Origin: Asaia lannensis NBRC 102526
Lineage (GTDB): Bacteria; Pseudomonadota; Alphaproteobacteria; Acetobacterales; Acetobacteraceae
Assembly: GCF_024054035.1 (NCBI RefSeq)
Contig: NZ_JAMXQU010000009.1
Span: forward strand, 62,001-126,000
Length of the DNA stretch: 64,000 nt
Reading direction: 5' to 3'
Shown here: positions 2,180 to 62,139 of the stretch, piece by piece
How the letters are laid out: each line of letters starts with the position of its first letter
How positions within the stretch are numbered: the first letter of the stretch is position 1
Program-made: the position numbers and the translations under genes
Notes under the pieces: model-generated
Told to the model about the DNA's origin: nothing
Databases searched by the model: none
Seen by the model: the letters and a program-made list of their open reading frames with translations, nothing else

Positions 2180-2343
2180 GCAAAGCCGAGGGGCTTTAAA
2201 CCGACCGTTTCCCGGTATCGAATAACCGGGCGCCAACGGGCGCGACAGCCACGGGTGGTTTCCGGTCGTAACCGGCACACGTTCTGACGCAAGTCGAGAG
2301 CGGGACACGAGGCGCACAGGCGCCATGCGTGAGAACCCAACCC
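2180..2343 (+). other. leader between scaffold and coat genes with hairpins
   Basis: A 164-base gap, the only sizeable one in the virion operon. It holds two evident short dyads: AAAGCC-gag-GGGCTTT soon after the scaffold stop (about 2190-2206), and CCCGGT-atcgaata-ACCGGG (about 2212-2231). Neither is followed by a T-run, so they look more like mRNA structures or processing sites than intrinsic terminators. A role in boosting coat-gene expression relative to the scaffold is an inference. Confidence 0.3.
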
Positions 2344-3639
2344 GTGGCAAACAATCTTATCAATAACCAGATGATTACGAAGATGGCCCTTGCCATTCGT
2401 CGTAACCAGAATTCCCTCGTGCAGAATGTCGACCGTTCCTATCAGGATCAGTTCGCCCAGAATGGCGGCAAGATCGGCGATACTGTCAACGTTCGCCTGC
2501 CGAACGATAACGTGGCGATCCAGGGCGCGGTCGTTAACCCGCAGAGCATGCAGGAGCGGTCCATCCCGCTGACGATCAGCTCGCGCTGGAATACGTCGCT
2601 CTCGTTCACCACCCAGGATCGTACCCTGAAGGTGGACCGCTTCGCTGAACGCTACGTCGCGCCCTCGGTCAACGTGCTTGTCGGTGCCCTGGCTGCCGAT
2701 CTGATCGGGCTCTCGCTTCAGTTCTCGAACCTCGTTCGCAATACTGACGATCAGGGCAACACGATCACGCCGTCCTCGAACACCTGGCTCCGCGCGAATG
2801 CGATCCTGTCCGAGTGTAACGCTGAAGCGGCCAATCGCTACGCCATCCTCGATCCTCTGTCCGAGGCCGACACCGTTGCGGGGCTGATGGGCATGTTCAA
2901 CCCCGCCGGCGAGATTTCGGACATCAACCGATCGGGCCGCATGGGCTCGCGTCTGCTCGGCGTTCAGGGGTGGATGCAGGACAATACGGTCATCGTGCAT
3001 CAGACTGGTTCCTATGACGGTCAGGCCACGTCAACGGGAGCGGTCAACTCGTTCACGCCGACAGGTCAGGTTGTGCCGTCGAGCAACATCAGTGCTGTTG
3101 CCTCGCCGCATATGTCTCTGATCTCGGTCAGTGCTGTGAACGGCGGTCTGAACGCTGGCGACATCATCACGATCACCAACGTCAACCGCGTCAACCGTGT
3201 GACCAAGCAGTCTCGCGCCATTCCGATGCAGTTCGTGGTGGCTCAGAACGTGGCATCAGGCGCGACCTCGATCCCGATTATGCCCGCACTGATCCCGCCC
3301 AATTCGGACGGCAGCCCGGCGCTTTACCAGACCGTTGATTCGGCCCCGGCGAGCGGAGCCAAAGTCAACCTGATCGGCAAGGCTGGCGAGGTCACGCGCC
3401 GTAACTTCATCTACCACAAGAAGGCGATGACGCTTGCGACGGTCGATCTGGAAATGGTCACGGGCGCAACGATCGATTGCGGTCGTGACAACCTCGACGG
3501 CATCAGCCTGCGCACACTGACCTACTATGACGGCCCGGTCGACGTGCGGGGAACACGTATGGATCTGCTTTACGGCAAGGCCATGCTTCGCCCCGACTGG
3601 GGCGTGATCGTCCCGTCTCCCACGGATGACGGGTTCTGA
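2344..3639 (+). CDS. major capsid protein, P22 coat (gp5) family
   Basis: About 431 residues, the length of P22 coat protein (430). The chosen GTG start gives MANNLINNQMITKMALAI, a typical start for this family; an in-frame GTG 15 bases upstream (2329) is the alternative. The N-terminal 120 residues carry the HK97-fold N-arm and E-loop-like region, an inserted beta-rich segment lies around residues 220-330 (similar in place to the P22 I-domain), and the C-terminal part has the NFIYHKKAMTLATVDLEMV block common in P22-coat relatives. Forms the icosahedral head. It overlaps the next small gene by one base. Confident from family features plus position. Confidence 0.88.
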   Translation: MANNLINNQMITKMALAIRRNQNSLVQNVDRSYQDQFAQNGGKIGDTVNVRLPNDNVAIQGAVVNPQSMQERSIPLTISSRWNTSLSFTTQDRTLKVDRFAERYVAPSVNVLVGALAADLIGLSLQFSNLVRNTDDQGNTITPSSNTWLRANAILSECNAEAANRYAILDPLSEADTVAGLMGMFNPAGEISDINRSGRMGSRLLGVQGWMQDNTVIVHQTGSYDGQATSTGAVNSFTPTGQVVPSSNISAVASPHMSLISVSAVNGGLNAGDIITITNVNRVNRVTKQSRAIPMQFVVAQNVASGATSIPIMPALIPPNSDGSPALYQTVDSAPASGAKVNLIGKAGEVTRRNFIYHKKAMTLATVDLEMVTGATIDCGRDNLDGISLRTLTYYDGPVDVRGTRMDLLYGKAMLRPDWGVIVPSPTDDGF

Positions 3640-3821
3640 TGCGGTATCCGCGCTCAATTCTCTCGCCTGACGGCTGCACATTCGTGACCGTCAGGGACGC
3701 AGAGCAGGAGGCGCGGGTTCGCGCTCGTCTCGAAGGGCGCCCCGAGCCTGCGGGCAAAGGGCGCCCGCCCCGGACTGTGATGCGCCCGAAAGGACGTTCG
3801 TCCAATGTCAGAAAGCCTTAG
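3639..3821 (+). CDS. small basic phage protein, unknown
   Basis: A 60-residue protein that starts within the coat stop codon (TGATG) and overlaps the start of the gp4-like gene by 17 bases. The first half (RYPRSILSPDGCTFVTVRD) looks folded and the second half is Arg/Pro/Gly-rich and probably disordered. I do not recognise it. Tight coupling on both sides makes it a real gene despite its size. A role in head completion or decoration would fit the position but nothing in the sequence shows it. Confidence 0.6.
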   Translation: MRYPRSILSPDGCTFVTVRDAEQEARVRARLEGRPEPAGKGRPPRTVMRPKGRSSNVRKP

Positions 3822-4650
3822 CAGCGCCCCTGGCGTGCGGGGATATCTCGTTTCAGATCTCGTCGGTATGGCGCTTGAACAACTCGGGATCGGTGTTGGT
3901 GGCGTCAATATAGACCCGCAAGGCATCAAATCCGGCGTCATGCATCTGAACATGATGCTTGCACAGTGGCAGCGCCGTCACTGCCTCGTGCCGAACCTCG
4001 TCGACCTGTCAGTCGTATCGAGCGGCGCGAGCGTTTATTATATCGGCCCGGGCGGTGATATCGACACTCCCGCACGGCCTTCTCAAATTAACGCCGCTTA
4101 TGCACGACTGCTCACCAACGGACAGGCTGTACAGCAGGGTGATTTCTCGCCTGTCGATTTCGCCGGTGGTGATTTCGACACTGGCAATGACGGCCTGTCG
4201 ACTGGCAACCCTATCGATTACGCGCTGACAGAAATCCCGTCTTATGAGGATTATGCCTCGATCGGTCTCAAAGGCCTGCGGACCTGGCCGAGCTACTTCT
4301 TTTATAATCCGACCTTCCCGCATGGCGAATTGCGCGTATGGCCTATTCCGGCTGGCTCAGTCTGGGAATTGCACGTTATCGCTTCCGAGCCGCTTCCGGC
4401 CACCCTGTCAGAGAACGATGCCATAAACCTGCCCCCGGAATACTGGGACGCCATCATGTGGTCGCTCGCCAAGAGGCTGGCGCCGTCCTACGGGCAGGAG
4501 CCGAGCCCGACTGTGGTGGCTGAGGCGCGCGGGGCTCTCGCCACAATCAGAACTGCAAACCTCAAAACCCCTACCCTCGGAATGCCCGCAGCCCTCACCG
4601 CTGGCGGCGCGCCGTTCTACTGGCCCGGATTGGAGATCCAGAAACTATGA
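3805..4650 (+). CDS. P22 gp4-like head-completion / tail accessory protein
   Basis: A 281-residue protein. The N-terminal 60 residues (VSDLVGMALEQLGI then MLAQWQRRHCLVPNL) match the helical start of P22 gp4-type tail accessory factors, which bind below the portal and add the first ring of the tail machine. The C-terminal part has NLPPEYWDAIMWSLAKRLAPSYG, also typical for the family. It is longer than P22 gp4 (166 residues) because of a middle beta-rich insertion; such longer forms are common in phages of other hosts. Its position right after the coat gene agrees with P22. A weak AAAGG-type ribosome site precedes the ATG. Confidence 0.8.
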   Translation: MSESLSSAPGVRGYLVSDLVGMALEQLGIGVGGVNIDPQGIKSGVMHLNMMLAQWQRRHCLVPNLVDLSVVSSGASVYYIGPGGDIDTPARPSQINAAYARLLTNGQAVQQGDFSPVDFAGGDFDTGNDGLSTGNPIDYALTEIPSYEDYASIGLKGLRTWPSYFFYNPTFPHGELRVWPIPAGSVWELHVIASEPLPATLSENDAINLPPEYWDAIMWSLAKRLAPSYGQEPSPTVVAEARGALATIRTANLKTPTLGMPAALTAGGAPFYWPGLEIQKL

Positions 4651-5738
4651 AGCGCCTCATCCTCCTGGCGGGACTGTGCGCTCCCGCCGTTGCTCTGGCA
4701 CAGTCAGTGCCCACAATGAACCCGCGCGTGACTCTTGCCGGACCGAACGGGCTGAATGCAGCCATGGCGACGAAAGCAGATACCAGCAAACCTGTCATTT
4801 CGAACCCGACAGTCTCGGGCCCCACTCCCTCGGTCGATAACGTGGATACGACTGCATCCGCCGACCTTGGCCGGTGGCGGTGGACCAACAACAACGGCAC
4901 GTTCGGCCTCAGCGCAGTGAATGACGCTCAATCGGCGATCAATTCGGTTTTGTCCTGTACCCGCAACGGGGCCGTACCGACCGGATGCACGTTCTCGGTT
5001 CCGATCACGACCCCGGACGGCGTTTTCGGACAGCCCCTTACCGGTGATATTCTTGGCACATGGCCAAACCTGTACCTTGCGCCGAATGTCACCGTGACGG
5101 GCGGGATCACGCTTGCAAACTCGTCCTCGCCGCAGCTTACGCTCCAGTCGACGCTTGCGGCCAATCCTGTGACTTTCTGGCAGGACAAAAGCGGAAACGG
5201 CAATTTCTCGACCAATTCCAGCAGTTCGGTCTTCGCGTTTTACACAGCCAACGGTGCGCTCGAAGTGCATGACACGGGAACCGGTGGAGCGGGTAAGATC
5301 AACCTGTATGGTCAGGGTGATACCATCCCGGCATCGGTATGGCAGGATACCGGAGGGGGGCTATATATGTCTCCCGGCTCCACCAATGGCAGCACGTCCA
5401 TCTATTCGAACGGCACGGGCGGGATCGCTCTTTACGGCAATCACGTCCAGTTGCATGGAACCGCATCGGGTGGAACAAACGGCGCGGTTCTCGATTTCTT
5501 CGGGCCGGGGCAGTCCAGCCCCGCGTCGATCTGGCAGGACCAGTATTCGAATATGTATGTAGCGTCCCAGGTCGGGAATAGCTGGGTGAATATCCAGGCT
5601 GCCGGGACGGGCTATGTAAGCATCCAGAGCCCGATACGGAACGGCAAGATGCCCACATCCGCCCCGTCTTCAGGTACGCATTTCGTCTGCGTTGATGATG
5701 CTGGCGATCTCTACCGGAGTGACACTTCATGTCGATGA
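4647..5738 (+). CDS. secreted-type beta-rich phage protein beside the dextranase gene, unknown
   Basis: A 363-residue protein that starts with a clear Sec signal peptide: MKR, a hydrophobic core, and an AQS cleavage region near residue 19. The mature part is Gly/Ser/Thr/Asn-rich with repeated short motifs such as SVWQD / SIWQD / TFWQD followed by GN or TG (about residues 170-310), suggesting a repetitive beta-helix or tail-fibre-like fold. The C-terminal end has two Cys residues in a VDDAGDLYRSD context. It overlaps the gp4-like stop (ATGA) and the dextranase gene start by ten bases, so both are coupled. An exported protein inside a virion operon is unusual. It may be a receptor-binding or polysaccharide-binding partner of the hydrolase; this is inference. 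Confidence 0.65.
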   Translation: MKRLILLAGLCAPAVALAQSVPTMNPRVTLAGPNGLNAAMATKADTSKPVISNPTVSGPTPSVDNVDTTASADLGRWRWTNNNGTFGLSAVNDAQSAINSVLSCTRNGAVPTGCTFSVPITTPDGVFGQPLTGDILGTWPNLYLAPNVTVTGGITLANSSSPQLTLQSTLAANPVTFWQDKSGNGNFSTNSSSSVFAFYTANGALEVHDTGTGGAGKINLYGQGDTIPASVWQDTGGGLYMSPGSTNGSTSIYSNGTGGIALYGNHVQLHGTASGGTNGAVLDFFGPGQSSPASIWQDQYSNMYVASQVGNSWVNIQAAGTGYVSIQSPIRNGKMPTSAPSSGTHFVCVDDAGDLYRSDTSCR

Positions 5739-7687
5739 TCAAAGGCGCGCTCGCAGGTGTCGCAGTGTTGTTTGCCGCAGGGACTGCCTATGCTGAGCCC
5801 GTTTTGTCCGGACCTCTTATCCAGTCTGTGAACACCGATCTCTCCCGCTATAAGGGTGGGGAGCAGGTGCGCATGATCGTCACCCTGTCGAACAAGACAG
5901 GGGCGCCATTCACCGGCACGATTACCGGCACCGTCACCGGTCGAGGCGTGCAGGTCGGCAGTCCCGTGGCAGCCACGGTTACGGCCCTTCCAGCGGGCGG
6001 CACAGCAACGGCGGAGTTGCGTTTCCCGTCCAGCCAGACAAACTGGCAGGGATATTTCGTCAGTCTGGTCGCCGCCGATCAGAACGGGCACCAACTCGAC
6101 CAGGAAGGCGGTGCATTCGATATCTCGTCCGATTGGTCGACCTACCCGCGTCAGTGCTGGGTTGTGGGCGCCTATACCGATTGGGGCGGGTGGAAGCCAC
6201 CGTTCTTCTCCGGCGCGCAGGCCGATCTTCAGAGCCTGAACGCCTACAAGTGCAATAACCTGCAATTCTACAACATGCTCTATCGCTGGCATAAGCCGTG
6301 GGTCAGTGGCGCGTCGTGGATCAATGGCGACGGGCAGAACATCAGCACCGACCTGATCAAACAGCATGTCGCCGCCGCAAAGTCGCTGCGCATGGGCACG
6401 TTCATGTATATGCCGGTCTACGGGGCGAATTACGGCATCGCGCCGGATTTCACGAAAGACGGCTCGGGTGCCCAGCTCTCCTGGGGGATGTTCACAAGCG
6501 CATGCGGCGCCAATGGCGGCTCGTGTCAGATCAGCGATCTTTGGACGTATAACGACAAGATCGCCTACATGAACCCGAACAACACCGCGTGGCAGGCGTA
6601 TTGGGGGCAGCAGGCGGAACTGATGCGCCGGCGTCTTGGTTTTGACGGGATGTTTGCGGATACCTACGGCACGATTTATCGCGCTTTGTGGGACGCCTCA
6701 GGTAATCGCATCATCATGGATACGGCCTACTCGTCGTTTCTGAACACGGTTGCCGGATACATGAACGGCCCGATTATTCTCAATCCGGCAGGCTCGTATC
6801 TTGAGCAGGATCTCGTACAGTCTCTTCGTGAGGCTTATCATTTCGTGGAGCGCTGGAACAACCCGACCGATATCGGCAATTTTGGCACATTCCTGACCAA
6901 GGCACAGCAGGTCTGGGGATGGGCCAGTGCAGCGGGGAAAAAGCAGTCTCTGGGGCTCGACTGGGACATGGGCATGAACAAGACCCTTGGCGCATCCGGT
7001 TCATGCACGATCAACGGCGGGTCAACGAAATGCACGTTCAACACGCCGGGCGTGCTCTATCAGGAAGCGGCCATGCTCGCGACCGGCGCGCACCATGCCT
7101 GGATCGTGGACGGTCAGCAGAACCAGGGCGACGGCGCACGTTTCATCAGCAACGACGATTTCCCTGTCGGCAACATGCTCAGCCCCAAGGCGGACATGGT
7201 GCAGGGCGAATATGACTATCAGACGTTCGGGGTGGCTTATGAAAAGCTCCTGCGCCTGAACATCAGCGCTTCAACAGCCGCGGCGCCCTCGATCACCTCC
7301 GGCGCAACGGGAAGCACGACAGCAGCGGCTGGCTCGGTCTGGATGTTCCAGAACCATCGTTCGGGTTTCGATATCCTGCACCTGCTCAATTACCAGCAGA
7401 TGAGCAGCGCGTCTTTCTCTGACGTGAACGACAACGCAGCCAATGCCGCCGCACCGACGACAACGGGTGCCTTGCAAGTCAAGATGTACGTCACCGCAGG
7501 CGGCACGCTTGGGAACCTCTACACGGCCAGCCCGGACGTGAACCACGGGGCGCCTGTTAGCCTGACCTATGCTACCGGCTCGGATAGCTCGGGCAGCTAT
7601 ATCACCTTCACGCTGCCTTCCCTCGCCTATTGGGATATGGTCTGGCTCGAAAACGGCCTTTCCTCCAGCGACTATGTGACGCCCTGA
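5729..7687 (+). CDS. glycoside hydrolase family 66 (dextranase-like), secreted, phage-encoded
   Basis: A 652-residue protein with a Sec signal peptide (hydrophobic core GALAGVAVLFAAG, likely cut after AYA near residue 23), an Ig-like N-terminal domain (about 25-130, DLSRYKGGEQVRMIVTLSN), a TIM barrel (about 135-500) and a C-terminal beta domain. Barrel motifs fit GH66: WQAYWGQQ, then GFDGMFADTYG with Asp311 as likely nucleophile, and YHFVERWNN with Glu374 as likely acid/base; later come YQEAAMLATGAHH and AYEKLLR. GH66 enzymes cut alpha-1,6-glucan or make cyclic isomalto-oligosaccharides. In an acetic-acid-bacterium phage it probably digests dextran-like capsule. ATG 5729 is preferred because GGAG lies nine bases upstream; ATG 5735 is the alternative. 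It sits between connector genes, not at the usual tailspike position. Confidence 0.85.
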   Translation: MSMIKGALAGVAVLFAAGTAYAEPVLSGPLIQSVNTDLSRYKGGEQVRMIVTLSNKTGAPFTGTITGTVTGRGVQVGSPVAATVTALPAGGTATAELRFPSSQTNWQGYFVSLVAADQNGHQLDQEGGAFDISSDWSTYPRQCWVVGAYTDWGGWKPPFFSGAQADLQSLNAYKCNNLQFYNMLYRWHKPWVSGASWINGDGQNISTDLIKQHVAAAKSLRMGTFMYMPVYGANYGIAPDFTKDGSGAQLSWGMFTSACGANGGSCQISDLWTYNDKIAYMNPNNTAWQAYWGQQAELMRRRLGFDGMFADTYGTIYRALWDASGNRIIMDTAYSSFLNTVAGYMNGPIILNPAGSYLEQDLVQSLREAYHFVERWNNPTDIGNFGTFLTKAQQVWGWASAAGKKQSLGLDWDMGMNKTLGASGSCTINGGSTKCTFNTPGVLYQEAAMLATGAHHAWIVDGQQNQGDGARFISNDDFPVGNMLSPKADMVQGEYDYQTFGVAYEKLLRLNISASTAAAPSITSGATGSTTAAAGSVWMFQNHRSGFDILHLLNYQQMSSASFSDVNDNAANAAAPTTTGALQVKMYVTAGGTLGNLYTASPDVNHGAPVSLTYATGSDSSGSYITFTLPSLAYWDMVWLENGLSSSDYVTP

Positions 7688-9132
7688 TGGCGCGCATTAA
7701 TCTCACCGGGGGATCGTATCAGGCGCGATCCCTCGCAGCTTCCGCACAGCGCTGCCTCAACCTGTATCCGGAGCCCTTGCCGCAGCAGCAACAGGAGCCA
7801 ATCCAGTTTGCGCACTACCCGACGCCCGGAACCCGCGCATTTTCCACACCTGAAACCGGCGCGGTTCGCTGCCTCTATCAGTCCAGCCAGGGCGATCTTG
7901 TCGCCGTAGTCGGGTCGGGAGTTTACGTCACCACCGCAGCCGGCAACGCAACGAAGATCGGCACCATCTCGGGCGGAACCGGTCAGGTCAGAATGCAGGA
8001 CAATGGGCTGACGCTCTTTATCGTCGACGGGACGCCAAAAGGTGGCTGGTATTGCTCGATCCCGCAAAAGCCGAGACAGGGCGAATACGGCACGCTTACC
8101 CGGATCTCCGACCCGGCCTTCTATGGTTCCAGCACGATTTCCGTGCTCGATACATTCTTTCTTTTCACAAATCCCGGCACGACAAACTGGTATGTGTCGC
8201 CGGCCAATTTCACGGATGAGGCCACGACGCCATTCGACTCCCTCTATGTGGCAAGCAAGACAAGCTATCCCGATACCATCATGGGGGTGGATGTCGTCGG
8301 ACAGACGATCTGGTTGTTCGGCACGCAGGAGACTGAACTCTGGTACACGTCCGGCGCGGCCGATTTCCCTTTCCAGCGCATGCCCTCTCTGACGATCAGT
8401 GCGGGCTGTATTGCGCCTTATTCCATATCGTCAAACGGCGATGCCGTGATCTGGCTTGGCTGCGACAACATGGGACTACCTCGCGTTTATATGGGACGCG
8501 GCACGGAAGCGCAGGCCATCAGCACGTTTGCAATCGATAACGCTATCCAGGGGTACGGTGACGCAGCCGACGCGATCGGCTCCCTGTATCAGCAAGGCGG
8601 CCATGTTTTTTACGTTCTGAGCTTTCCCCGGACAGGTGCAACATGGGTGTACGATCTGTCGGTCGGGCTCTGGCACGAGCGGTGCTCGCTCGACAGCAGG
8701 ACGCTCACAGAAACCCGCCTCCGGGCAAATGCGTGGGCGAATGCCTACGGGAGAGTCTTTTGCGGGGATTACGAGACCGGTGCGATTTGCGAAGTCACGC
8801 TCGATCTCGATACCGAGGCTGGAGTGCCGATCAAGCGGCAGCGAGCGTGCCCCCATGCAATCGGTGACGGCAGGCGTATGATTCACCGCAAACTGATGCT
8901 CGACATGCAAAACGGAAGTGGTGCAACCGTGCAGGTCGACTGGTCCGACGATCGGGGATCGACATGGAGCCATCCGTTTTTGCAGATGCAATTGGGAACA
9001 ACCGGTAACGCATGGCCGACTGTCTGGCGTCTCGGAATGGCGCGTGACCGGATCTATCGATTGACCTGGACGGGTGGACAGGGAGCCGCGCTGATGGGCG
9101 CTTTTCTGGACGTGGATACCGTATCGTCATGA
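7687..9132 (+). CDS. P22 gp10-like packaged DNA stabilisation protein
   Basis: A 481-residue, beta-rich protein starting MARINLTGGSYQARS and containing NLYPEPLP near residue 27, the usual opening of the P22 gp10 family (472 residues in P22). Gp10 binds below gp4 in the tail machine, forms a hexamer and stops packaged DNA from leaking. Repeated beta-propeller-like blades (GVDVVGQTIWLFGTQETELW, then a C-terminal beta sandwich) fit the family. The ATG overlaps the dextranase stop by one base (TGATG); an upstream in-frame ATG inside the hydrolase gene was not chosen because it would add 19 unrelated residues. It overlaps the next gene by ATGA. Confidence 0.85.
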   Translation: MARINLTGGSYQARSLAASAQRCLNLYPEPLPQQQQEPIQFAHYPTPGTRAFSTPETGAVRCLYQSSQGDLVAVVGSGVYVTTAAGNATKIGTISGGTGQVRMQDNGLTLFIVDGTPKGGWYCSIPQKPRQGEYGTLTRISDPAFYGSSTISVLDTFFLFTNPGTTNWYVSPANFTDEATTPFDSLYVASKTSYPDTIMGVDVVGQTIWLFGTQETELWYTSGAADFPFQRMPSLTISAGCIAPYSISSNGDAVIWLGCDNMGLPRVYMGRGTEAQAISTFAIDNAIQGYGDAADAIGSLYQQGGHVFYVLSFPRTGATWVYDLSVGLWHERCSLDSRTLTETRLRANAWANAYGRVFCGDYETGAICEVTLDLDTEAGVPIKRQRACPHAIGDGRRMIHRKLMLDMQNGSGATVQVDWSDDRGSTWSHPFLQMQLGTTGNAWPTVWRLGMARDRIYRLTWTGGQGAALMGAFLDVDTVSS

Positions 9133-9620
9133 GCGAAACCAAACCCGCCAATTACTACATGCCCTATTATTCGGGGCCCGTAACAGACAGCAAAGGCAAT
9201 GCCACCCCTGCATTTACCCGCTATCAGCTCGCACTGTTCAACCGGACGGGCAAGGAGCAGGGCATGGATGCCGTCTATGACACGCAACAGATCACGCTTG
9301 CACTGGACACGGCCAATAAAGCCGAAGCGGACGCGCAGACAGCCATAAGGAATGCAGCAACGGCTCAGGCGGCAGCAGAAGCAGCGGCGCAACAGGCCGC
9401 CGATGCCGAAACGGACGCTCTTGCGGCGCAATCGGCAGCAGCCCAAGCGGAAGCAGACGCGCAATCTGCTTTGAAGGCAGCACAGGACGTGCTAGTAATG
9501 ACCTTGCTCACGTCCAGCAGCCTCACGGCAAAGACGGGTCAATCTTTAGATGATGCGGCGCTACTGTCCGCACAAAGTCAGATATGGCCGTCACTTCTCT
9601 TGCAATCCAGCCAGGCATAA
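9129..9620 (+). CDS. Ala-rich coiled-coil phage protein, tail-needle candidate
   Basis: A 163-residue protein. After a short N-terminal segment with NYYMPYYSGPVTD and a YQLALFNRTG block, residues about 60-125 are nearly all Ala, Gln, Glu and Asp in a heptad-like pattern (repeats such as AEADAQ and AAAEAAA), a strong candidate for a trimeric coiled coil. In P22 the gene after gp10 is gp26, the coiled-coil needle that plugs the tail channel. Position and predicted shape agree, but I see no clear sequence match to gp26, and many tail-fibre adaptor proteins look the same. It overlaps gp10 by four bases and the next gene by 37. Confidence 0.6.
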   Translation: MSETKPANYYMPYYSGPVTDSKGNATPAFTRYQLALFNRTGKEQGMDAVYDTQQITLALDTANKAEADAQTAIRNAATAQAAAEAAAQQAADAETDALAAQSAAAQAEADAQSALKAAQDVLVMTLLTSSSLTAKTGQSLDDAALLSAQSQIWPSLLLQSSQA

Positions 9621-9901: not shown

Positions 9902-10260
9902 AATGGCGCACCCGGCAGATATACGGCTTTCCCGTGCCACACTGCGCAGAGGTCTTTTCCCGCTTTGGGGCAGTTGCCGTCTTTATTCCCGTAGCGGGGC
10001 ATGACGCATGGGAGGTGCATGTCTCGTCACGGCCAGACGCGAACCGCCGCTCTGTGATGGTTGCATTCCGCCAGTTCCTTCGACGTTGGAGCGCGCGTCA
10101 TCCGGGCGTTGCGCTCTATGGCCCGATCCGGCGCGATAATGCCCCTGCCCGCTTCCTGGCTGGAGCGTTTGGGTTCCGCCGTTGGCAGACGGGGCCGATG
10201 CTTTGGCCGGATGGCTCCATGATTGACACCGTCATTTTCAGAAAGGACGCAGCACAATGA
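9898..10260 (+). CDS. GNAT-like small phage protein at the gp14 position
   Basis: A 120-residue protein. The segment WEVHVSSRPDANRR, then FRQFLRRW, then YGPIRRDNAPARFLAGAFGF resembles the end of the GNAT acetyltransferase fold, where an Asn-Xaa-Ala-Xaa-Arg-Phe turn precedes a GF strand. As I recall, P22 gp14 and T7 gp13 type internal virion proteins belong to this superfamily, and here the gene lies exactly where P22 has gp14, just before the ejection-protein genes. The canonical acetyl-CoA loop (R/QxxGxG/A) is not visible, so catalytic activity is doubtful. Coupled at both ends by ATGA overlaps. Confidence 0.6.
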   Translation: MKWRTRQIYGFPVPHCAEVFSRFGAVAVFIPVAGHDAWEVHVSSRPDANRRSVMVAFRQFLRRWSARHPGVALYGPIRRDNAPARFLAGAFGFRRWQTGPMLWPDGSMIDTVIFRKDAAQ

Positions 10261-11063
10261 GTGGCGGCGCTGTAGGAGCCGGCGTATCCGGCGTTGGCAG
10301 TCTGGTCAGCGGGGCGCTTGGCGCTTCCGGCGCAGCGTCAGCAGCAAAAATACAGGCACGCACAGCTTCTGCGCAGGCGGCTGCCCTTGGGCAGGCCGGA
10401 CAAGCCGCACAGGATTACCTTAATCCTTATGTGGCGGCGGGCCAGAATGCACTTGGCGGCATCCAGAGCAATATGTCCCTCTGGGGTAATATCAATAACG
10501 GATACACCGATCAGGCTCAGGGCGTGCAGAATACCGCAGCCAATAACCTGACCAATCTTGCCAATAACGGGATCACCCAACAATCGATCGAGAACACCCC
10601 TGGCTGGTCTCAGATCAATGCGCTTGGACAGCAGGGCGTTACGAACGCTTCTGCCGCTCGCGGCCTTGCAAACAGCGGTGCCGCAATGAAGGGCGCAGCC
10701 GATTACGCGACGACGCAAGCCAACCAGACATACCAGAACCTGTATAACGATCAGATCAGCAGCAATAACGCGCTCTTGGGTGTGGGAAATGGCTTGCTCG
10801 CGACCAACGAAGCAAACCAGGGCAATATCAATAACGCATTCAACCGTGAAAATGCCCTGCTAGGTTATGGAGCATCGGCGGCAACCAACAGTGCCCAGAA
10901 CGCACTGACAGCCGCAGGGGCTTCCGCCAATTACGGCGCGCAATCCGGCAATGCTCTGGCGTCCGGCGTAGTGGGTAGCAGTAACGCTCTGGCTTCTGGT
11001 CTTAATGGCGCAGGCAATTCCTATCTGCTCTATCAGGCGCTTCTGAACGGGAAGAACTCCTAA
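10257..11063 (+). CDS. gp7-like DNA ejection (internal virion) protein
   Basis: A 268-residue protein made nearly entirely of Ala, Gly, Asn, Gln and Ser. Residues 1-30 form a Gly/Ala-rich helix of the glycine-zipper type (GAGVSGVGSLVSGALGASGA), then come long amphipathic helices with repeats such as NALLGVGNGLL and NALLGYGASAA, ending YLLYQALLNGK. Low-complexity Ala/Gly/Gln helices are usual in P22-type ejection protein gp7, which leaves the head with DNA and helps build the conduit across the envelope. Position is as in P22 (gp14 then gp7, gp20, gp16). Assignment is by position and composition. Confidence 0.65.
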   Translation: MSGGAVGAGVSGVGSLVSGALGASGAASAAKIQARTASAQAAALGQAGQAAQDYLNPYVAAGQNALGGIQSNMSLWGNINNGYTDQAQGVQNTAANNLTNLANNGITQQSIENTPGWSQINALGQQGVTNASAARGLANSGAAMKGAADYATTQANQTYQNLYNDQISSNNALLGVGNGLLATNEANQGNINNAFNRENALLGYGASAATNSAQNALTAAGASANYGAQSGNALASGVVGSSNALASGLNGAGNSYLLYQALLNGKNS

Positions 11064-12541
11064 TGGCCGGCGAGATCGACACCTCCATCGCGCTCCAGGC
11101 AGGGCGCCCCTCGATCAATATGCTGAACCCGCTTGAGGTGGCGCGCCAGGGTGCAGAATACCGCAATGCTTTGCTTGGCAATAAAATCCGGCAGAGTGAG
11201 TATGATGCTCGCGTCGCTCAGGGGAACGCCCTGCTTGGTGCAACCGGTGCCGATGGGCAGGTCGATTATGCCAAGGCACGTGCCGCCATGGCGCGCGATC
11301 CGGCAGCAGCCTATGGAGCCGTTGACGCCTACCGGCAGCAGAACGCATCGCGCAACGATGACCTGCAAAATGCGGAAGCGTCCAAGAATGCCGTGGGCTC
11401 CATCATGTCGTTTGTGGGTGCCAACCCCGACGCAGCGCATCTGGACGCAGGCGCACGTATGGCGAAGGCCGTACTGCCAAAAAGTCAGTGGGGCCAGATC
11501 GACGCGATCGTGCATCAGATCGGGAGCCATCCGAACGGTATTGCGGGTGGTGTGGCTCAGATTACGAACTCGATGCAGGCGCCGCAGGGTCAGGAGCAGA
11601 ATGTTTATGGCACGGCGGGTGCTACGGTCGATAACGGGCAGCAGACGATTATCGGGACACAGGGCAGCGCGATGACTGGCGGGCAGTTCCGGCCTGCAAC
11701 GACTGTGCAGAAAGAGACATCGCCGGAATTCAATTCAGCTCCGACCGAGGTCATCAACCCCGATGGGTCACGCAGCTATGTCCGGCGCGATCAGATCGTC
11801 GGGACTGGCGGCGGAAGGCCGACCGTGCCCCCTGAGGCTATGGGGTCGGGGCGTTATCCGTCGCAGCAGGCCGGAAATCCCGGCTATCAGGCGGCGCCTG
11901 CGGCAGGTCAGACAGAAGCCATTGCAGCAACCGCGAAAGCGGGAGCGGAAGGAGCGAATGCACTCATGCAGGCTTCTGCGAACCGCAATGACCGCATGGC
12001 TATGCTAGGGAATATGGCTTCCGACCTTGAGGGCTTTACCTCCGGTCCCGGACGGGAGCGTTGGCGCAATATAGAAGCGACTTGGAACAACTGGACGCCC
12101 TACTCAGTTCATTCTGGTGAGAGTGAAATCGAAAAAGCTCAGTCGTTCAATAAATGGGCACAGAACCTAGCCAATGCTCAGTCGCAGGCGCTCGGCACCG
12201 GTACCGATAGTAAGTTAGCCGCTGCGGTCCATGCCAGCCCGAATAGCTCACTCCAGGACAGCACAAATCGTCTGATGATTCACCAGTTGCAGGGCAATGA
12301 GGATGCAATCAACGCCAAGGCGCAGGCGTGGAAATCTTCCGGATTGCAACCCGCTCAATTCCAGCAGTGGAACCAGCAGTTCAGTCAGAGTTTCGACCCG
12401 CGCGCCTTTCAGATGATCCGCATGACGCCGGCAGAGCGGACCACCTATATCGAAGGGCTGAAAAAATCCGGTCAGTTCGATGAGCTGAAGAAAAACTATA
12501 ACGCCATGGCGGCAGCCGGGCTGGTCCCTGATGGTCGCTGA
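11063..12541 (+). CDS. gp20-like internal virion protein candidate
   Basis: A 492-residue polar protein with Ala/Gln-rich helices, including AYRQQNASRNDDLQNAEASKNAVG near residue 100, a Gly/Thr/Gln-rich disordered middle (about 175-290), and a helical C-terminal half rich in Asn and Gln. It starts in the TAATG overlap with the gp7-like gene and overlaps the transglycosylase gene by 11 bases. It lies where P22 has ejection protein gp20, and length (471 in P22) and composition agree. I do not see a diagnostic motif. Likely released into the host cell with the DNA. Confidence 0.6.
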   Translation: MAGEIDTSIALQAGRPSINMLNPLEVARQGAEYRNALLGNKIRQSEYDARVAQGNALLGATGADGQVDYAKARAAMARDPAAAYGAVDAYRQQNASRNDDLQNAEASKNAVGSIMSFVGANPDAAHLDAGARMAKAVLPKSQWGQIDAIVHQIGSHPNGIAGGVAQITNSMQAPQGQEQNVYGTAGATVDNGQQTIIGTQGSAMTGGQFRPATTVQKETSPEFNSAPTEVINPDGSRSYVRRDQIVGTGGGRPTVPPEAMGSGRYPSQQAGNPGYQAAPAAGQTEAIAATAKAGAEGANALMQASANRNDRMAMLGNMASDLEGFTSGPGRERWRNIEATWNNWTPYSVHSGESEIEKAQSFNKWAQNLANAQSQALGTGTDSKLAAAVHASPNSSLQDSTNRLMIHQLQGNEDAINAKAQAWKSSGLQPAQFQQWNQQFSQSFDPRAFQMIRMTPAERTTYIEGLKKSGQFDELKKNYNAMAAAGLVPDGR

Positions 12542-14909
12542 TCTCGACCGCCACTATGACGAAGCCGGTCGATACTGGAATGTCGACCCCAATGTGCTGC
12601 GAGCAGTTCATCAGGTCGAAGACCCGCGAGACGATCCCCTTGCGAGATCAAAGGCCGGGGCGATCGGGCATATGCAATTCATGCCCGACACAGCGCGTCG
12701 ACTGGGCATAGATCCGACAGACCCGGTGCAGAGCATCTACGGAGCCGCCCGGCTTCTGGACGAGAATATCAGGCGCTACGGCAACCTCCCGGATGCTCTC
12801 CGAGCCTATAACGGCGGGACGAACCGCGCAAAATGGGGGAACCCCGAGACAATGGCTTATCCCGGCAAGGTCGCTGCCAACTATCAGCCACAAAAGCAGC
12901 CTGCCCCAGACGCAGACAAAGACGCATTTGGCGCTATGTTCGGCTCTCCTTCACCAATGAAGGCGGGAGCATCTAAAACATCGCCTTCCGACGATGCTTT
13001 CAATGCTGTTTTTGGCAATGGCGACAGTCAGAAACCCGAGAAGCATGAGCCTGTGCAATCTGGGCTGTCAAAGGCTTGGACGGTCACGAACGACACGGTG
13101 AATGCAGCAGGACGTGAGATCGATCGCACCTTCGGCGTGGGCGTCCCTCATCTGTTGAGCTGGGCCGCATCGGCTGGGCATCGTTACGATAATGCGGCCT
13201 CTAGGGCTTTGCATGATGCTGGCGATTATGTCGCCCGTCACGAGGACGCGGATGAGGCCGCCCGCAAGGATGACTATGGGTCGGGGGTATCGAATACAGT
13301 AGGCACGCTTGCGGGTGCCGTATTGGCGACGGAGCTGGGTGGTCGCGCCATTCGTCCGGCAGCCGGCGCGTTGGAGAGCAATCGCGCAGGTCGCATTGCT
13401 TCGAACGTGCTCAAGGGTGACGGCCCATTCGTCACCAGGATCGCGAACAATGCGCTTGCCGCTGGCGCTCAAACCGCCCTCGCTGGCGGCGATGGAACGC
13501 AAGCCGCTGAGGTGGGCGGCATCCTGGCGGCGGGCATCCCCGTGGCCGGGAAAGTAATCTCCCCACTCATGCAGAAAGGTGGAAACGCACTTGCCGGAGG
13601 CGTGCGCAGGGTCGGCGATTATCTCGATCCGACAGGTGTATCGCGCGAGACGCCTGCCCCGTCCGGTGCATCGGGGGTGACATCCGGCGCAAATGATGCT
13701 GCGTCTATATCTGCCCAGAAAGCGGAAGAGAAAGCGCAGTCCAAGGCGCTGCGTGGCGTCGGTGCGTTCACCGACCCCAAGAAAGCAGCTGATGCCATCA
13801 TAAGCGCCTTTACCAGCCCGGACGGCACGCGGATTTATGAAGCCCAGACGCCGGGTGTTTTCCATACCAAGGCCACCCGGACGCAGGATGTGAAACTTGC
13901 CGCGCTTGAGGATAATCTTCGCGACCTGCACCCGGAGGCGTTCCGGGCGCTCGATGAAGCGAACGACCACGCCTATACCACGCACGTCCGAGGCACGATC
14001 GGCACGCCTGAGCAGATCGAGAAGCTCACGCAGGAACGGCAGGCTTTCGAACAACAGCACCGCGAGGCGGCGTTTGCCAACGAGCAGCCTGTTTCGACAG
14101 ACGCGCTCCATGGCATTCTGAACGAGAACATAGAGGCCAGCCGAGGAAACGCGCCCGTCAAAGCAGCGCTCACCAAGGCGCGTGATTATCTGGCCGACGC
14201 TACAGATGAGGATGGGACGGCCCTACCCTCCAATCTATGGAATGTGCGCAAGGCGATTGGATACGGGCTTCAGCAGGCATCAGCATCGGAGTCCGCGCAC
14301 ATGCGAGCCGCTGCCTCTCGCCTGTCGCCGTTCATGGACGACCTGGCGCACCATATCGAGGAAGGCGCACCGGGTTTCCGCGATTACCTTAACGGTTATG
14401 CGCAACGATCTTCCGATATCGACAGCAAGCGGTTTTTGCAGAGCAAGGGACTTTTGCAGGCGTCGAACGAGTCACCCACCGGCGAAACGGTGAACTACAC
14501 CGCTCTCAAGAGGCTGATCGGCCAACTCGACAAAAACGAAGTCTCAGTGTCCAAAAAGGGTACGGACGCCGTCACGCCTGAGCAGGAGGCGGCTTTACGC
14601 TCGGCATATCGCGACATGCTGGCAGAGCGCGAGACGCGCGCAGCAGGCCGGTCAAGCGGCGCGTCCAAGACATTCAAGGCGGCTATGACGCAACGAGCGA
14701 AAGAGGTTCGCGGCGGGACAGGCGGCGCTCTCCTTGGCCCCCTTGGCGGCGCACTTGGCGGCCAGGAGGTCGGGGCGCTTGCTGGTGGCGCGATCGGTTC
14801 TGCACTTCATGCAGGCAATGCGCTGCTAGGCCATGCGCTGACAAACCGACGACTGACGAACGCCAACAAGATCGATCAGGAGGTTATCAATCGCCTCTTA
14901 CATCCCTGA
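12531..14909 (+). CDS. gp16-like ejection protein with lytic transglycosylase domain
   Basis: A 792-residue protein. Residues about 5-115 are a lytic transglycosylase domain: VLRAVHQVED with Glu30 as catalytic acid, AIGHMQFMPDTARRLG, and ALRAYNGG. The rest is Ala-rich helical sequence, with a Gly/Ala stretch near residue 720 (GGALLGPLGGALGGQEVGAL) that may insert in a membrane. P22 gp16 and T7 gp16 are ejected before the genome, and T7 gp16 opens peptidoglycan with such a domain. This is the last rightward virion gene; it overlaps the following leftward gene tail-to-tail by 23 bases. The start ATG is the only one that includes the full domain. Confidence 0.82.
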   Translation: MVADLDRHYDEAGRYWNVDPNVLRAVHQVEDPRDDPLARSKAGAIGHMQFMPDTARRLGIDPTDPVQSIYGAARLLDENIRRYGNLPDALRAYNGGTNRAKWGNPETMAYPGKVAANYQPQKQPAPDADKDAFGAMFGSPSPMKAGASKTSPSDDAFNAVFGNGDSQKPEKHEPVQSGLSKAWTVTNDTVNAAGREIDRTFGVGVPHLLSWAASAGHRYDNAASRALHDAGDYVARHEDADEAARKDDYGSGVSNTVGTLAGAVLATELGGRAIRPAAGALESNRAGRIASNVLKGDGPFVTRIANNALAAGAQTALAGGDGTQAAEVGGILAAGIPVAGKVISPLMQKGGNALAGGVRRVGDYLDPTGVSRETPAPSGASGVTSGANDAASISAQKAEEKAQSKALRGVGAFTDPKKAADAIISAFTSPDGTRIYEAQTPGVFHTKATRTQDVKLAALEDNLRDLHPEAFRALDEANDHAYTTHVRGTIGTPEQIEKLTQERQAFEQQHREAAFANEQPVSTDALHGILNENIEASRGNAPVKAALTKARDYLADATDEDGTALPSNLWNVRKAIGYGLQQASASESAHMRAAASRLSPFMDDLAHHIEEGAPGFRDYLNGYAQRSSDIDSKRFLQSKGLLQASNESPTGETVNYTALKRLIGQLDKNEVSVSKKGTDAVTPEQEAALRSAYRDMLAERETRAAGRSSGASKTFKAAMTQRAKEVRGGTGGALLGPLGGALGGQEVGALAGGAIGSALHAGNALLGHALTNRRLTNANKIDQEVINRLLHP

Positions 14910-18734: not shown

Positions 18735-19247
18735 ATGCGTCGGCTACTCTTCATCCTGCCATTTGTGCTTCCCGGCGCTGCCTTCGCGCAGTCTCAGGCG
18801 GCCAACCCTGTTACGCCCTTTTCTGAGGGGCAGCGGGTCGGGACCTCGTCAAATCCCATCATTGCGGCACTCTCATCCGTAGTCCCTTCCGCGTCTGCAT
18901 CGTCTGGGCAGGCGGCGGCCCCCGTTGAGCTGTACAGCTATGGGCGCCGGGTCGGCACACAATCCAACCCGCTGTATGTCAATCTTGGCAACGCCCTCTC
19001 CGGCTACCTCACGCAATCGCAGGCGGCTTCGACTTATCTCCCCCTCACGGGCGGCACGATTACCGGGCCTCTCTCTGGTGGTTACTATATCCCCCACTGC
19101 TACACCGTTGCCGATCTGAAGGCTCTTCCAGCCCCGTCCGGTGCTGCATATGCGTGTTATTTCGACGCGAATAACGGGAACCAGCCGAACATCGCCGTTT
19201 ATGCGCTCGGGGCTTGGCACTTCCTCCCCTTAGGGAACGCACTGTGA
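18735..19247 (+). CDS. phage protein with Sec signal peptide and tail-fibre-like motif
   Basis: A 170-residue protein starting with MRRLLFILPFVLPGAAFAQS, a clear Sec signal peptide cut after AFA. The mature part carries two similar segments, EGQRVGTSSNPI and YGRRVGTQSNPL (about residues 31 and 73), which look like an internal duplication. It then has YLPLTGGTITGPLSGG, a motif very common in phage tail fibres. The C-terminal 50 residues hold two Cys and a WHFLPLG end. It heads the lysis-gene cluster and overlaps the next gene by one base. Its job is unknown; its export would place it in the periplasm or outside. Confidence 0.65.
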   Translation: MRRLLFILPFVLPGAAFAQSQAANPVTPFSEGQRVGTSSNPIIAALSSVVPSASASSGQAAAPVELYSYGRRVGTQSNPLYVNLGNALSGYLTQSQAASTYLPLTGGTITGPLSGGYYIPHCYTVADLKALPAPSGAAYACYFDANNGNQPNIAVYALGAWHFLPLGNAL

Positions 19248-21321: not shown

Positions 21322-21417
21322 GTACGAATCGGATCAGAACGTACCGGGATGAACCGAAACAGACTGATACCTATCGAGGCCAATCTTCAAAAAACGGCAG
21401 TTTTCTGCGGGTGAGGA

Positions 21418-21492
21418 TGGTGGGTGCGACAGGGATTGAACCTGTGACCCCTGCCGTGTGAAGGCAGTGCTCTACCGCTGAGCTACGCACCC
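21418..21492 (-). tRNA. tRNA-Val (anticodon CAC)
   Basis: Read on the minus strand the gene starts GGGTGCGTAGCTCAGC and folds as a full cloverleaf: acceptor GGGTGCG/CGCACCC, anticodon stem CTGCC/GGCAG with loop TTCACAC (anticodon CAC, decoding GUG), and T-arm ACAGG-TTCAATC-CCTGT. The 3' CCA is encoded (21420-21418). The 3' end points to the phage genes, which is the usual arrangement when a prophage has integrated into the tRNA 3' half. Confidence 0.95.
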
Positions 21493-61320: not shown

Positions 61321-62139
61321 TCAGACCACCTCGTTCCGGTTGGCAGGCGAGGCGTACAGAGCGCCGAGACGGGCAACGCGTCTGGTCATGCGCGGATGAG
61401 TCGAGAAGATCTCGACGAAAAATCCAGCCATACCGGGTACCATCTGTTCCTGCGCGGCAAAAGCGTCACTATGCATGGCGCCATTCAGTCTCTTGGCACC
61501 GCATGCCAGCATCTGAAGCGCACCGAGACCATCACGTATATCCGGCAGCACCGAGGCCGCAACGGCATCGCAGCTATATTCGCGTGCACGCGAATAAGCG
61601 CGGTAGAGAAACGGAACGAAGTAGGCCGGAATACGAAGCCAGTGTTTGAACCCGTTGAGATGACCCAGAACATGATGGGCAATTTCATGTCCGATCACAA
61701 AGCGAAGCTGTGCATCTTCTTCAACCTCGACAAGGGCAGAGGTCAGAAAAACATAGCGGCCGCGTAAAAGTCGGACCGCGAAAGCATTCATTACCCCACT
61801 CGCGTTATGGATAAACGCTGTCGGGACTTCATCCAGTCCGAGCACGCGGGCCATTTCACAATGAATCGCATAGAGTTCAGGGAACTGCCGCTCTGAAAGC
61901 AGAACCATATTGCCCATGGCGTAGGCACGGTAGAGCGCTGCCCCGATCCATGCGAACAACGCGCCGACACCGACATATACGAGCAGGATAAGCAGATGAT
62001 GCAGCATCTGGGGTTTTGCCATTGTAGCAAGAAAAATTCCCCCAAGCACCACAACCCAGACAAGGCTGCCAATGGTTGTCAGCATCCCACCATAGAGACC
62101 CTCATTCGGGTGGCGAAGCTTTCTGATCTCGGGTCTCAT
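61321..62139 (-). CDS. M48 family metalloprotease
   Basis: A 272-residue membrane-anchored protein. Two N-terminal helices (about 17-42 and 50-75), then the peptidase domain with zinc motif VIGHEIAHHVLGHLNG (HEIAH) and a downstream Glu ligand in RAREYSCDAVAA. It belongs to the HtpX-like group that handles damaged membrane proteins. The peptidase faces the cytoplasm in HtpX; here this is assumed. Monocistronic and convergent with the B12 receptor. Confidence 0.9.
   Translation of the reverse strand: MRPEIRKLRHPNEGLYGGMLTTIGSLVWVVVLGGIFLATMAKPQMLHHLLILLVYVGVGALFAWIGAALYRAYAMGNMVLLSERQFPELYAIHCEMARVLGLDEVPTAFIHNASGVMNAFAVRLLRGRYVFLTSALVEVEEDAQLRFVIGHEIAHHVLGHLNGFKHWLRIPAYFVPFLYRAYSRAREYSCDAVAASVLPDIRDGLGALQMLACGAKRLNGAMHSDAFAAQEQMVPGMAGFFVEIFSTHPRMTRRVARLGALYASPANRNEVV

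Follow-up and report, generated by a model that had tools for sequence, protein, structure and literature searches.

The analysed stretch of DNA (hereafter the window) comprises 64,000 nucleotides (nt), positions 62001–126000 of contig C9 in the 3.22-Mb genome of Asaia lannensis NBRC 102526, and takes in virion genes of a P22-like prophage of approximately 38.8 kb located at tRNA-Val. Two adjacent genes of the virion operon are considered here: one encodes a 652-amino-acid (aa) enzyme of glycoside hydrolase family 66 (GH66; 5729–7687, forward strand) with catalytic Asp311 and Glu374, and the other, upstream of it, a 363-aa fibre-like protein with four cysteines in two close pairs (SPfib; 4647–5738, forward strand). 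Both proteins begin with a predicted signal peptide. A sequence-only reading of this DNA had placed the enzyme between gp4-like and gp10-like tail genes, and this placement was borne out: a gp4-like tail accessory factor or head-tail adaptor is encoded at 3805–4650 (forward strand; PF11650, E = 1.3e-07; phrog_637) and a gp10-like head closure or nozzle protein at 7687–9132 (forward strand; PF11134, E = 1.9e-06; phrog_578, E = 1.8e-90). SPfib intervenes, and its signal peptide had gone unmentioned. The SPfib and GH66 genes overlap by 10 nt, and the gp10 gene overlaps the GH66 stop codon by 1 nt.

The open reading frame (ORF) at 5729–7687 starts with ATG and is free of internal stops. Its product matched the Pfam GH66 family (PF13199) over profile positions 1–546 of 546 (E = 1.4e-85; 288.5 bits against a curated cut-off of 23.7), and this was the sole Pfam match at E ≤ 0.01. 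The NCBIfam BT3087 endo-dextranase equivalog model scored 175.5 bits, under its cut-off of 730, and the PHROGs search returned no family at E ≤ 0.01. With phmmer, 12 distinct chains were retrieved from the PDB sequences, every one named dextranase or cycloisomaltooligosaccharide glucanotransferase (CITase), the best being 5axg (3.9e-48); the family assignment made earlier from the letters is thus confirmed. The same holds for the proposed catalytic pair: Asp311 was aligned with the Asp that is Gly in 5axh (a D312G mutant per its title) and Glu374 with a Glu of the 5axg chain, and across the GH66 proteins compared Asp311 was conserved in 16/16 and Glu374 in 15/16. The sixteenth protein (L065, 1030–2967; L numbers are our handles for sequence records) has Gln at this position and is perhaps an inactive or binding-only form.

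The structure prediction that the sequence-only reading had called for gave a GH66 fold. The AlphaFold model, computed from an input of 14 sequences, had a mean predicted local distance difference test score (pLDDT) of 80.3 and a predicted template modelling score (pTM) of 0.84, and was superimposed on 5axg_B with TM scores of 0.80/0.88. The top 18 Foldseek matches in the PDB were dextranases or CITases; among the 50 matches listed from BFVD there was no full-length GH66 match, 19 having E ≤ 0.001 and the best reaching 1.2e-16 with TM scores of 0.38/0.41. The profile match, which opens with a beta domain, starts at residue 36, right behind the signal peptide, and no anchor domain was found in the enzyme by Pfam search or in the AlphaFold model. 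Its six cysteines lie in three close pairs; three of the six are kept in 16/16 proteins and the remainder in 15/16.

The Thermoanaerobacter pseudethanolicus dextranase (5axg/5axh) has the same family, fold and catalytic Asp and Glu; the prophage enzyme is 23% identical to it and is encoded in a virion operon, and the three conserved cysteine pairs set its clade apart. CITases also have the GH66 fold, with a CBM35 domain inserted into the catalytic module. The PDB CITases 3wnk and 5x7g (approximately 700 residues) were aligned in two separated stretches, whereas the prophage enzyme matched the Pfam profile in one, and no CBM insertion typical of CITases was found in it (Pfam; single continuous match). 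P22-type tailspikes and capsule depolymerases likewise cut polysaccharides and are encoded with tail genes, but the prophage enzyme differs from the tailspike in its GH66 barrel, its signal peptide and the absence of any anchor domain in the searches above.

The signal peptide of the enzyme covers residues 1–22 (5729–5794, forward strand), with a cut predicted after Ala22; the N-terminus reads MSMIKGALAGVAVLFAAGTAYA, followed behind the cut by EP. It has a positive n-region, a hydrophobic h-region and small residues at −3 and −1. Across 15 aligned GH66 proteins, Met1 and Ala22 (the predicted −1) were the only invariant columns among residues 1–22, −3 was A, V, S or T in 15/15, and −2 was unconstrained, so that the signal-peptide form persists though identity in the family falls to 45–47%. 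The simple rule that was used to call signal peptides favoured a cut behind residue 18 in the window protein, whereas the alignment favoured Ala22. In SPfib the N-terminus is MKRLILLAGLCAPAVALA, followed by Q. The fibre- and spike-like proteins compared with it numbered 17 (13 from the P22-like intervals described below plus L004, L024, L025 and L029; L028, whose start is unclear, and the L104 fibre stand outside the set): −1 was Ala in 17/17, −3 was A, S, V or G in 17/17, −2 was of nine kinds, and Pro stood at −6 in 14/17. Ala at −1, a small residue at −3 and a free −2 make up the signal peptidase I pattern.

The simple rule passed 14/15 GH66 proteins, 17/17 fibre- and spike-like proteins and 1/10 other virion genes in the window. 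In Acetobacter phage phiAX1 (LC644973), 4 of the 60 coding sequences examined passed (the record has 72), namely SPfib, PhiAX1_600 and two read as an endolysin and a spanin-type lipoprotein. The Sec signal peptide that had been proposed for the enzyme is therefore well supported as a prediction by the 15-protein alignment and its textbook form. It is not confined to the dextranase: all 17 fibre- and spike-like proteins of the anchor type or the cassette passed the same rule. Behind the signal peptide, SPfib proteins had exactly four cysteines in 5/5 cases, the second pair being placed differently in two subtypes.

The P22-like gene set is present in order (coat, gp4, gp10, gp7, gp16), together with an integrase and an attachment repeat. 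The coat protein is encoded at 2329–3639 (PF11651, E = 4.3e-30), a short protein behind gp10 with a weak tail-fibre- or needle-like match at 9129–9620 (phrog_32829, 5e-4), a gp7-like ejection protein at 10257–11063 (phrog_598, 2.1e-10) and a gp16-like ejection protein with an SLT transglycosylase domain at 12531–14909 (PF01464, 9e-16; phrog_2013, 2e-31), all on the forward strand. The attachment repeat at tRNA-Val (21402–21446, no strand assigned; exact over at least 40 bp) marks the right end of the prophage, and its partner at C9:44656 adjoins an integrase-like gene, recognised by reading the ORF; the repeat was found by comparing both prophage ends, a tRNA-end pattern having given no match. 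SPfib had no family in Pfam or PHROGs, and its AlphaFold model (pLDDT 43.4, pTM 0.36) was set aside. A 4.1-kb viral contig (L005) extends from the last 138 GH66 residues to the start of gp20 in the same order, with proteins 98.5–100% identical. At 18735–19247 (forward strand), ahead of an endolysin-like gene, lies a 170-aa fibre-like ORF with a signal peptide (MRRLLFILPFVLPGAAFAQ...), relatives of which were PhiAX1_600 of phiAX1 and ORFs in L112–L118 but not in L119.

To place the pair in context, 18 gp4–gp10 intervals (slots) were read, all from phages or prophages of acetic acid bacteria; for L065, L088 and L091 only one side of the interval lay within the sequence, and the count leaves out the partial L005 and distant gp10 relatives at 31–37% identity (L078 and L079 were fetched). 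Fourteen slots were filled, and in 13 of these a signal-peptide-bearing fibre- or spike-like protein was found. SPfib and GH66 occupied five (the window, L003, phiAX1, L064 and L065), always in the order gp4, SPfib, GH66, gp10. In eight others the protein shared the anchor and signal peptide but differed in its body (L067, L069, L071, L074, L076, L077, L088 and L091; that of L071 is split across two ORFs), one (L070) held a spike-like protein without a signal peptide, and four were empty (L068, L072, L073 and L075). The body in L088 matched a tail-spike PHROG at 3e-6. A Pfam pectate-lyase-like family was matched by L074 and L091 under the cut-off and by L070 over it, and the slot proteins of L067, L069, L077 and L088 had no Pfam match. 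Residues 84–273 of the L067 protein matched 15 phage records named tail spike, tail fibre, tail, pectin lyase or hypothetical; a sixteenth record, phiAX1, was matched through its anchor. The gp10 genes of L076 and L077 are in pieces, as in decaying prophages, with the slot ORFs still open. In L075, a 569-aa ATPase/TOPRIM-like protein (6757–8466; OLD-like by eye) lies among the virion genes and is a possible defence gene.

Of 43 records with a gp10 match, four relatives from other hosts were opened, and the slot was empty in 4/4, the gene before gp10 abutting or overlapping it; for two of them, PAE2 and PBR31, the annotation of this gene reads tail accessory factor or tubular protein A. The P22 tailspike gene 9 lies elsewhere than in the gp4–gp10 interval. 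The earlier statement that the enzyme does not sit at the tailspike place consequently holds for the map of P22 itself, but not for phages of acetic acid bacteria, where 13 of the 14 filled slots carry fibre- or spike-like proteins with signal peptides.

A described relative is PhiAX1_450, the GH66 protein of phiAX1, which lies in the same slot between gp4/SPfib and gp10 and is 47% identical. It is annotated as a cycloisomaltooligosaccharide glucanotransferase, with a start behind the signal peptide; an upstream start restores the latter. Unlike the window prophage, phiAX1 also encodes a GDSL-lipase protein past gp16. This protein, PhiAX1_610 (L006, 32924–34708), is annotated as KilA-N DNA-binding; Pfam gives GDSL lipase, and it looks like a spike-like esterase. 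In the parts of the original report available, the source is Acetobacter sp. ATCC 21760, the phage is given as incomplete by PHAST prediction, particles were obtained from 15/177 strains and all termed myovirus-like, and the main text is without "glucanotransferase" or "dextran" (PMC8566455). The phiAX1 particles, with a 136-nm tail, are termed myovirus-like there, yet the LC644973 genome is P22-like. The accessible text of a second paper mentions phiAX1 once, without glycoside hydrolase or dextran (PMC9379143), and that of another terms it a podophage (PMC10975493).

Signal peptides on phage proteins have precedents in the parts of the literature available. Endolysin Lys44 of fOg44 uses Sec (PMC6116005), the lambda gene for Lom, a signal-peptide-bearing outer-membrane protein, lies among tail genes (PMC12309495), and the SGNH esterase gp40 of PBR31 has a predicted signal peptide (PMC10975493). 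These resemble SPfib and GH66 in that respect but are lysis or membrane proteins, and the available text describes none of them as an exopolysaccharide hydrolase that is paired with a fibre. In the literature searched, mostly without subscription papers, no earlier description of a Sec-exported GH66 phage cassette was found, nor, by title, any work on a phage-encoded CITase.

Other tail types have the cassette too. A T7-like prophage of Bombella pluederhausensis (L024/L100) encodes a signal-peptide fibre and GH66 between tail genes of phrog_394 and phrog_376, which we take to be tail tubular proteins A and B. In a further prophage that shares these neighbour proteins (L032), the interval has a distant GH66 (26% identity) carrying a signal peptide and CBM6. 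In two contractile-tail contigs (L004 and L104), which have genes for tape measure, baseplate hub and wedge, a fibre-like gene and GH66 follow the wedge gene, and in L004 no further fibre-like ORF was listed before a gene that is Dam-methylase-like by eye. In the GH66 tree, P22-like L003 was grouped with L004 and L029 (99/99), and phiAX1, L064 and L065 were on one 100/100 branch; the gp10 proteins of L003, phiAX1, L064 and L065 were 69–80% identical to that of the window. Because the tree grouping and the gp10 identities disagree, the sequences indicate that GH66 has moved between phage types. A further GH66, approximately 24% identical and in an unrelated setting, is encoded in a human faecal phage contig (L007, MT835882; 7812–9617).

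GH66 was present in 9/397 genomes of the family, this one included, and here there is a second copy on contig C12, 94% identical, with neighbours that include a Crp-type regulator, a Hint-domain protein and an AI-2E transporter. The last SPfib codons remain directly upstream of the C12 gene, by which we read it as an escaped phage gene; capture by a phage from the host was set aside as its source on account of the same remnant. Between both copies, non-synonymous divergence (dN) was 0.039 and synonymous divergence (dS) 0.260 (dN/dS approximately 0.15), which argues for purifying selection. Fragments of SPfib are likewise found ahead of GH66 in Saccharibacter (L097) and Gluconacetobacter diazotrophicus (L101).

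The substrate of known GH66 enzymes is alpha-1,6-glucan. The sequence-only reading had named dextran around acetic acid bacteria as the target, and this part remains unproven because the host genome had no GH70 (dextran-making) match and one GH68 match. The open frames around two GH15 matches, at 609 and 631 aa, fall short of the approximately 1,300 aa of the known dextran dextrinase. Neighbours such as lactic acid bacteria may supply the dextran, or the enzyme may act on a different alpha-glucan. An empty-slot prophage (L114) encodes a levanase-like GH32 without a signal peptide (2986–4233), which with GH66 makes two exopolysaccharide hydrolases in phages of this family.

We favour, with a probability of about 0.5, a late, Sec-exported prophage alpha-1,6-glucanase that is freed at lysis and paired with a fibre-like binder. 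GH66 and SPfib would be produced late in lytic growth and carried by Sec into the periplasm, where signal peptidase would cleave them and disulfides would form, and both would be freed when the cell lyses. The enzyme would then cut dextran-like polysaccharide surrounding the lysing cell and those nearby, which would let progeny spread and reach the next cell. SPfib would bind the polysaccharide or the cell surface, and the two together would stand in for a one-piece tailspike, with binder and enzyme as separate proteins. Of the earlier proposal of secretion by a lysing or lysogenic cell, release at lysis is plausible. Secretion by the lysogen was rejected as the main role and is unlikely, because the GH66 gene overlaps its neighbours and promoter-like sites in 3600–9200 were about as frequent as expected by chance (3 sites; shuffle mean 2.5). 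Several points weigh against the favoured explanation. The signal peptide calls rest on the simple rule and the alignment, not on SignalP; the rule misses the L064 GH66 and is weak by itself because it also passes approximately 18% of shuffled N-termini. Paired cysteines are no proof of export and were set aside as such, the L070 spike without a signal peptide having 14 and gp10 having 9. Gln replaces the catalytic Glu in L065, the gene upstream of GH66 in L032 has no signal peptide by eye, and the host lacks a GH70 match. Finally, a Sec substrate gets to the periplasm only, and its exit from the cell requires lysis.

Phage depolymerases are generally regarded as parts of the virion that are produced and assembled in the cytoplasm. 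The first rival to free action after lysis, which remains our first choice, is that SPfib and perhaps GH66 fold in the periplasm and attach to the tail at or after lysis as a receptor-binding or depolymerase part. In P22-like and T7-like phages the signal-peptide proteins fill the stretch from adaptor to nozzle gene, and in contractile-tail contigs they come behind the baseplate wedge gene, both being places where fibres or spikes attach or are encoded; one conserved anchor carries varied bodies, some of them spike-like; and P22 tailspikes can join finished heads in vitro. The genes past gp16 favour a receptor-binding role as well. Six signal-peptide-slot phages were read there (the window, phiAX1, L112, L113, L117 and L118, the last four being the genomes of L067, L069, L074 and L071) and three with empty slots; L070/L119 (no-signal slot), L075 (region not fetched) and L064/L102 (lysis region not reached) stand outside the table. 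A spike-like protein without a signal peptide was absent in 5/6 of the former and present in 3/3 of the latter (Fisher p = 0.048, in a post hoc table of few related genomes, L115 and L116 being classed by eye). Among the empty-slot phages, L114 has the GH32 protein and a protein with a weak gp53-like fibre end (under the Pfam cut-off), without a signal peptide, and L115 and L116 have 453-aa proteins, fibre-like by eye, with no Pfam or PHROGs match; L112 has a further signal-peptide protein of approximately 507 aa. The sole exception, phiAX1, has SPfib and GH66 and in addition a 594-aa GDSL-lipase protein followed by a 258-aa protein, both without signal peptides. Because phiAX1 breaks the rule, and because to our knowledge no tailed phage exports tail parts before assembly, free release is put first; no anchor domain was found in GH66 itself either, and attachment of the window pair to the virion is rather doubtful. 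Its general form, in which spikes, fibres and GH66 of short- and contractile-tailed phages of acetic acid bacteria would leave the cytoplasm by Sec, acquire their disulfides in the periplasm and be added to the virion when the cell lyses or afterwards, is unlikely.

Less probable again is a cargo pair that alters the surface of the infected cell or lysogen (for superinfection exclusion, or with the dextranase serving the host) without a role in the virion or in release. Escaped copies do persist in chromosomes (C12, under the selection and with the fibre-gene remnants described above, L097 and L101), and Lom, in the available text, offers a parallel among tail genes (PMC12309495); the lack of a separate promoter signal and the tail-gene positions of the cassette in three tail types speak against it. 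Bacterial dextranases are secreted enzymes, which would make capture of a GH66 gene together with its signal peptide easy, and the enzyme could now be cytoplasmic or an ordinary tail part with an inherited, unused signal peptide. This is very improbable, as the form has been kept where Met1 and the −1 Ala alone are invariant, and the unrelated neighbouring fibre proteins have signal peptides as well.

A signal-peptide binder and enzyme thus recur as a cassette at tail positions, which makes either of two outcomes testable, export with joining at lysis or a lysate armed with a free exoenzyme. A secreted dextranase is also seen passing from phage to chromosome, and the cassette may be relevant to exopolysaccharide where acetic acid bacteria are cultured.

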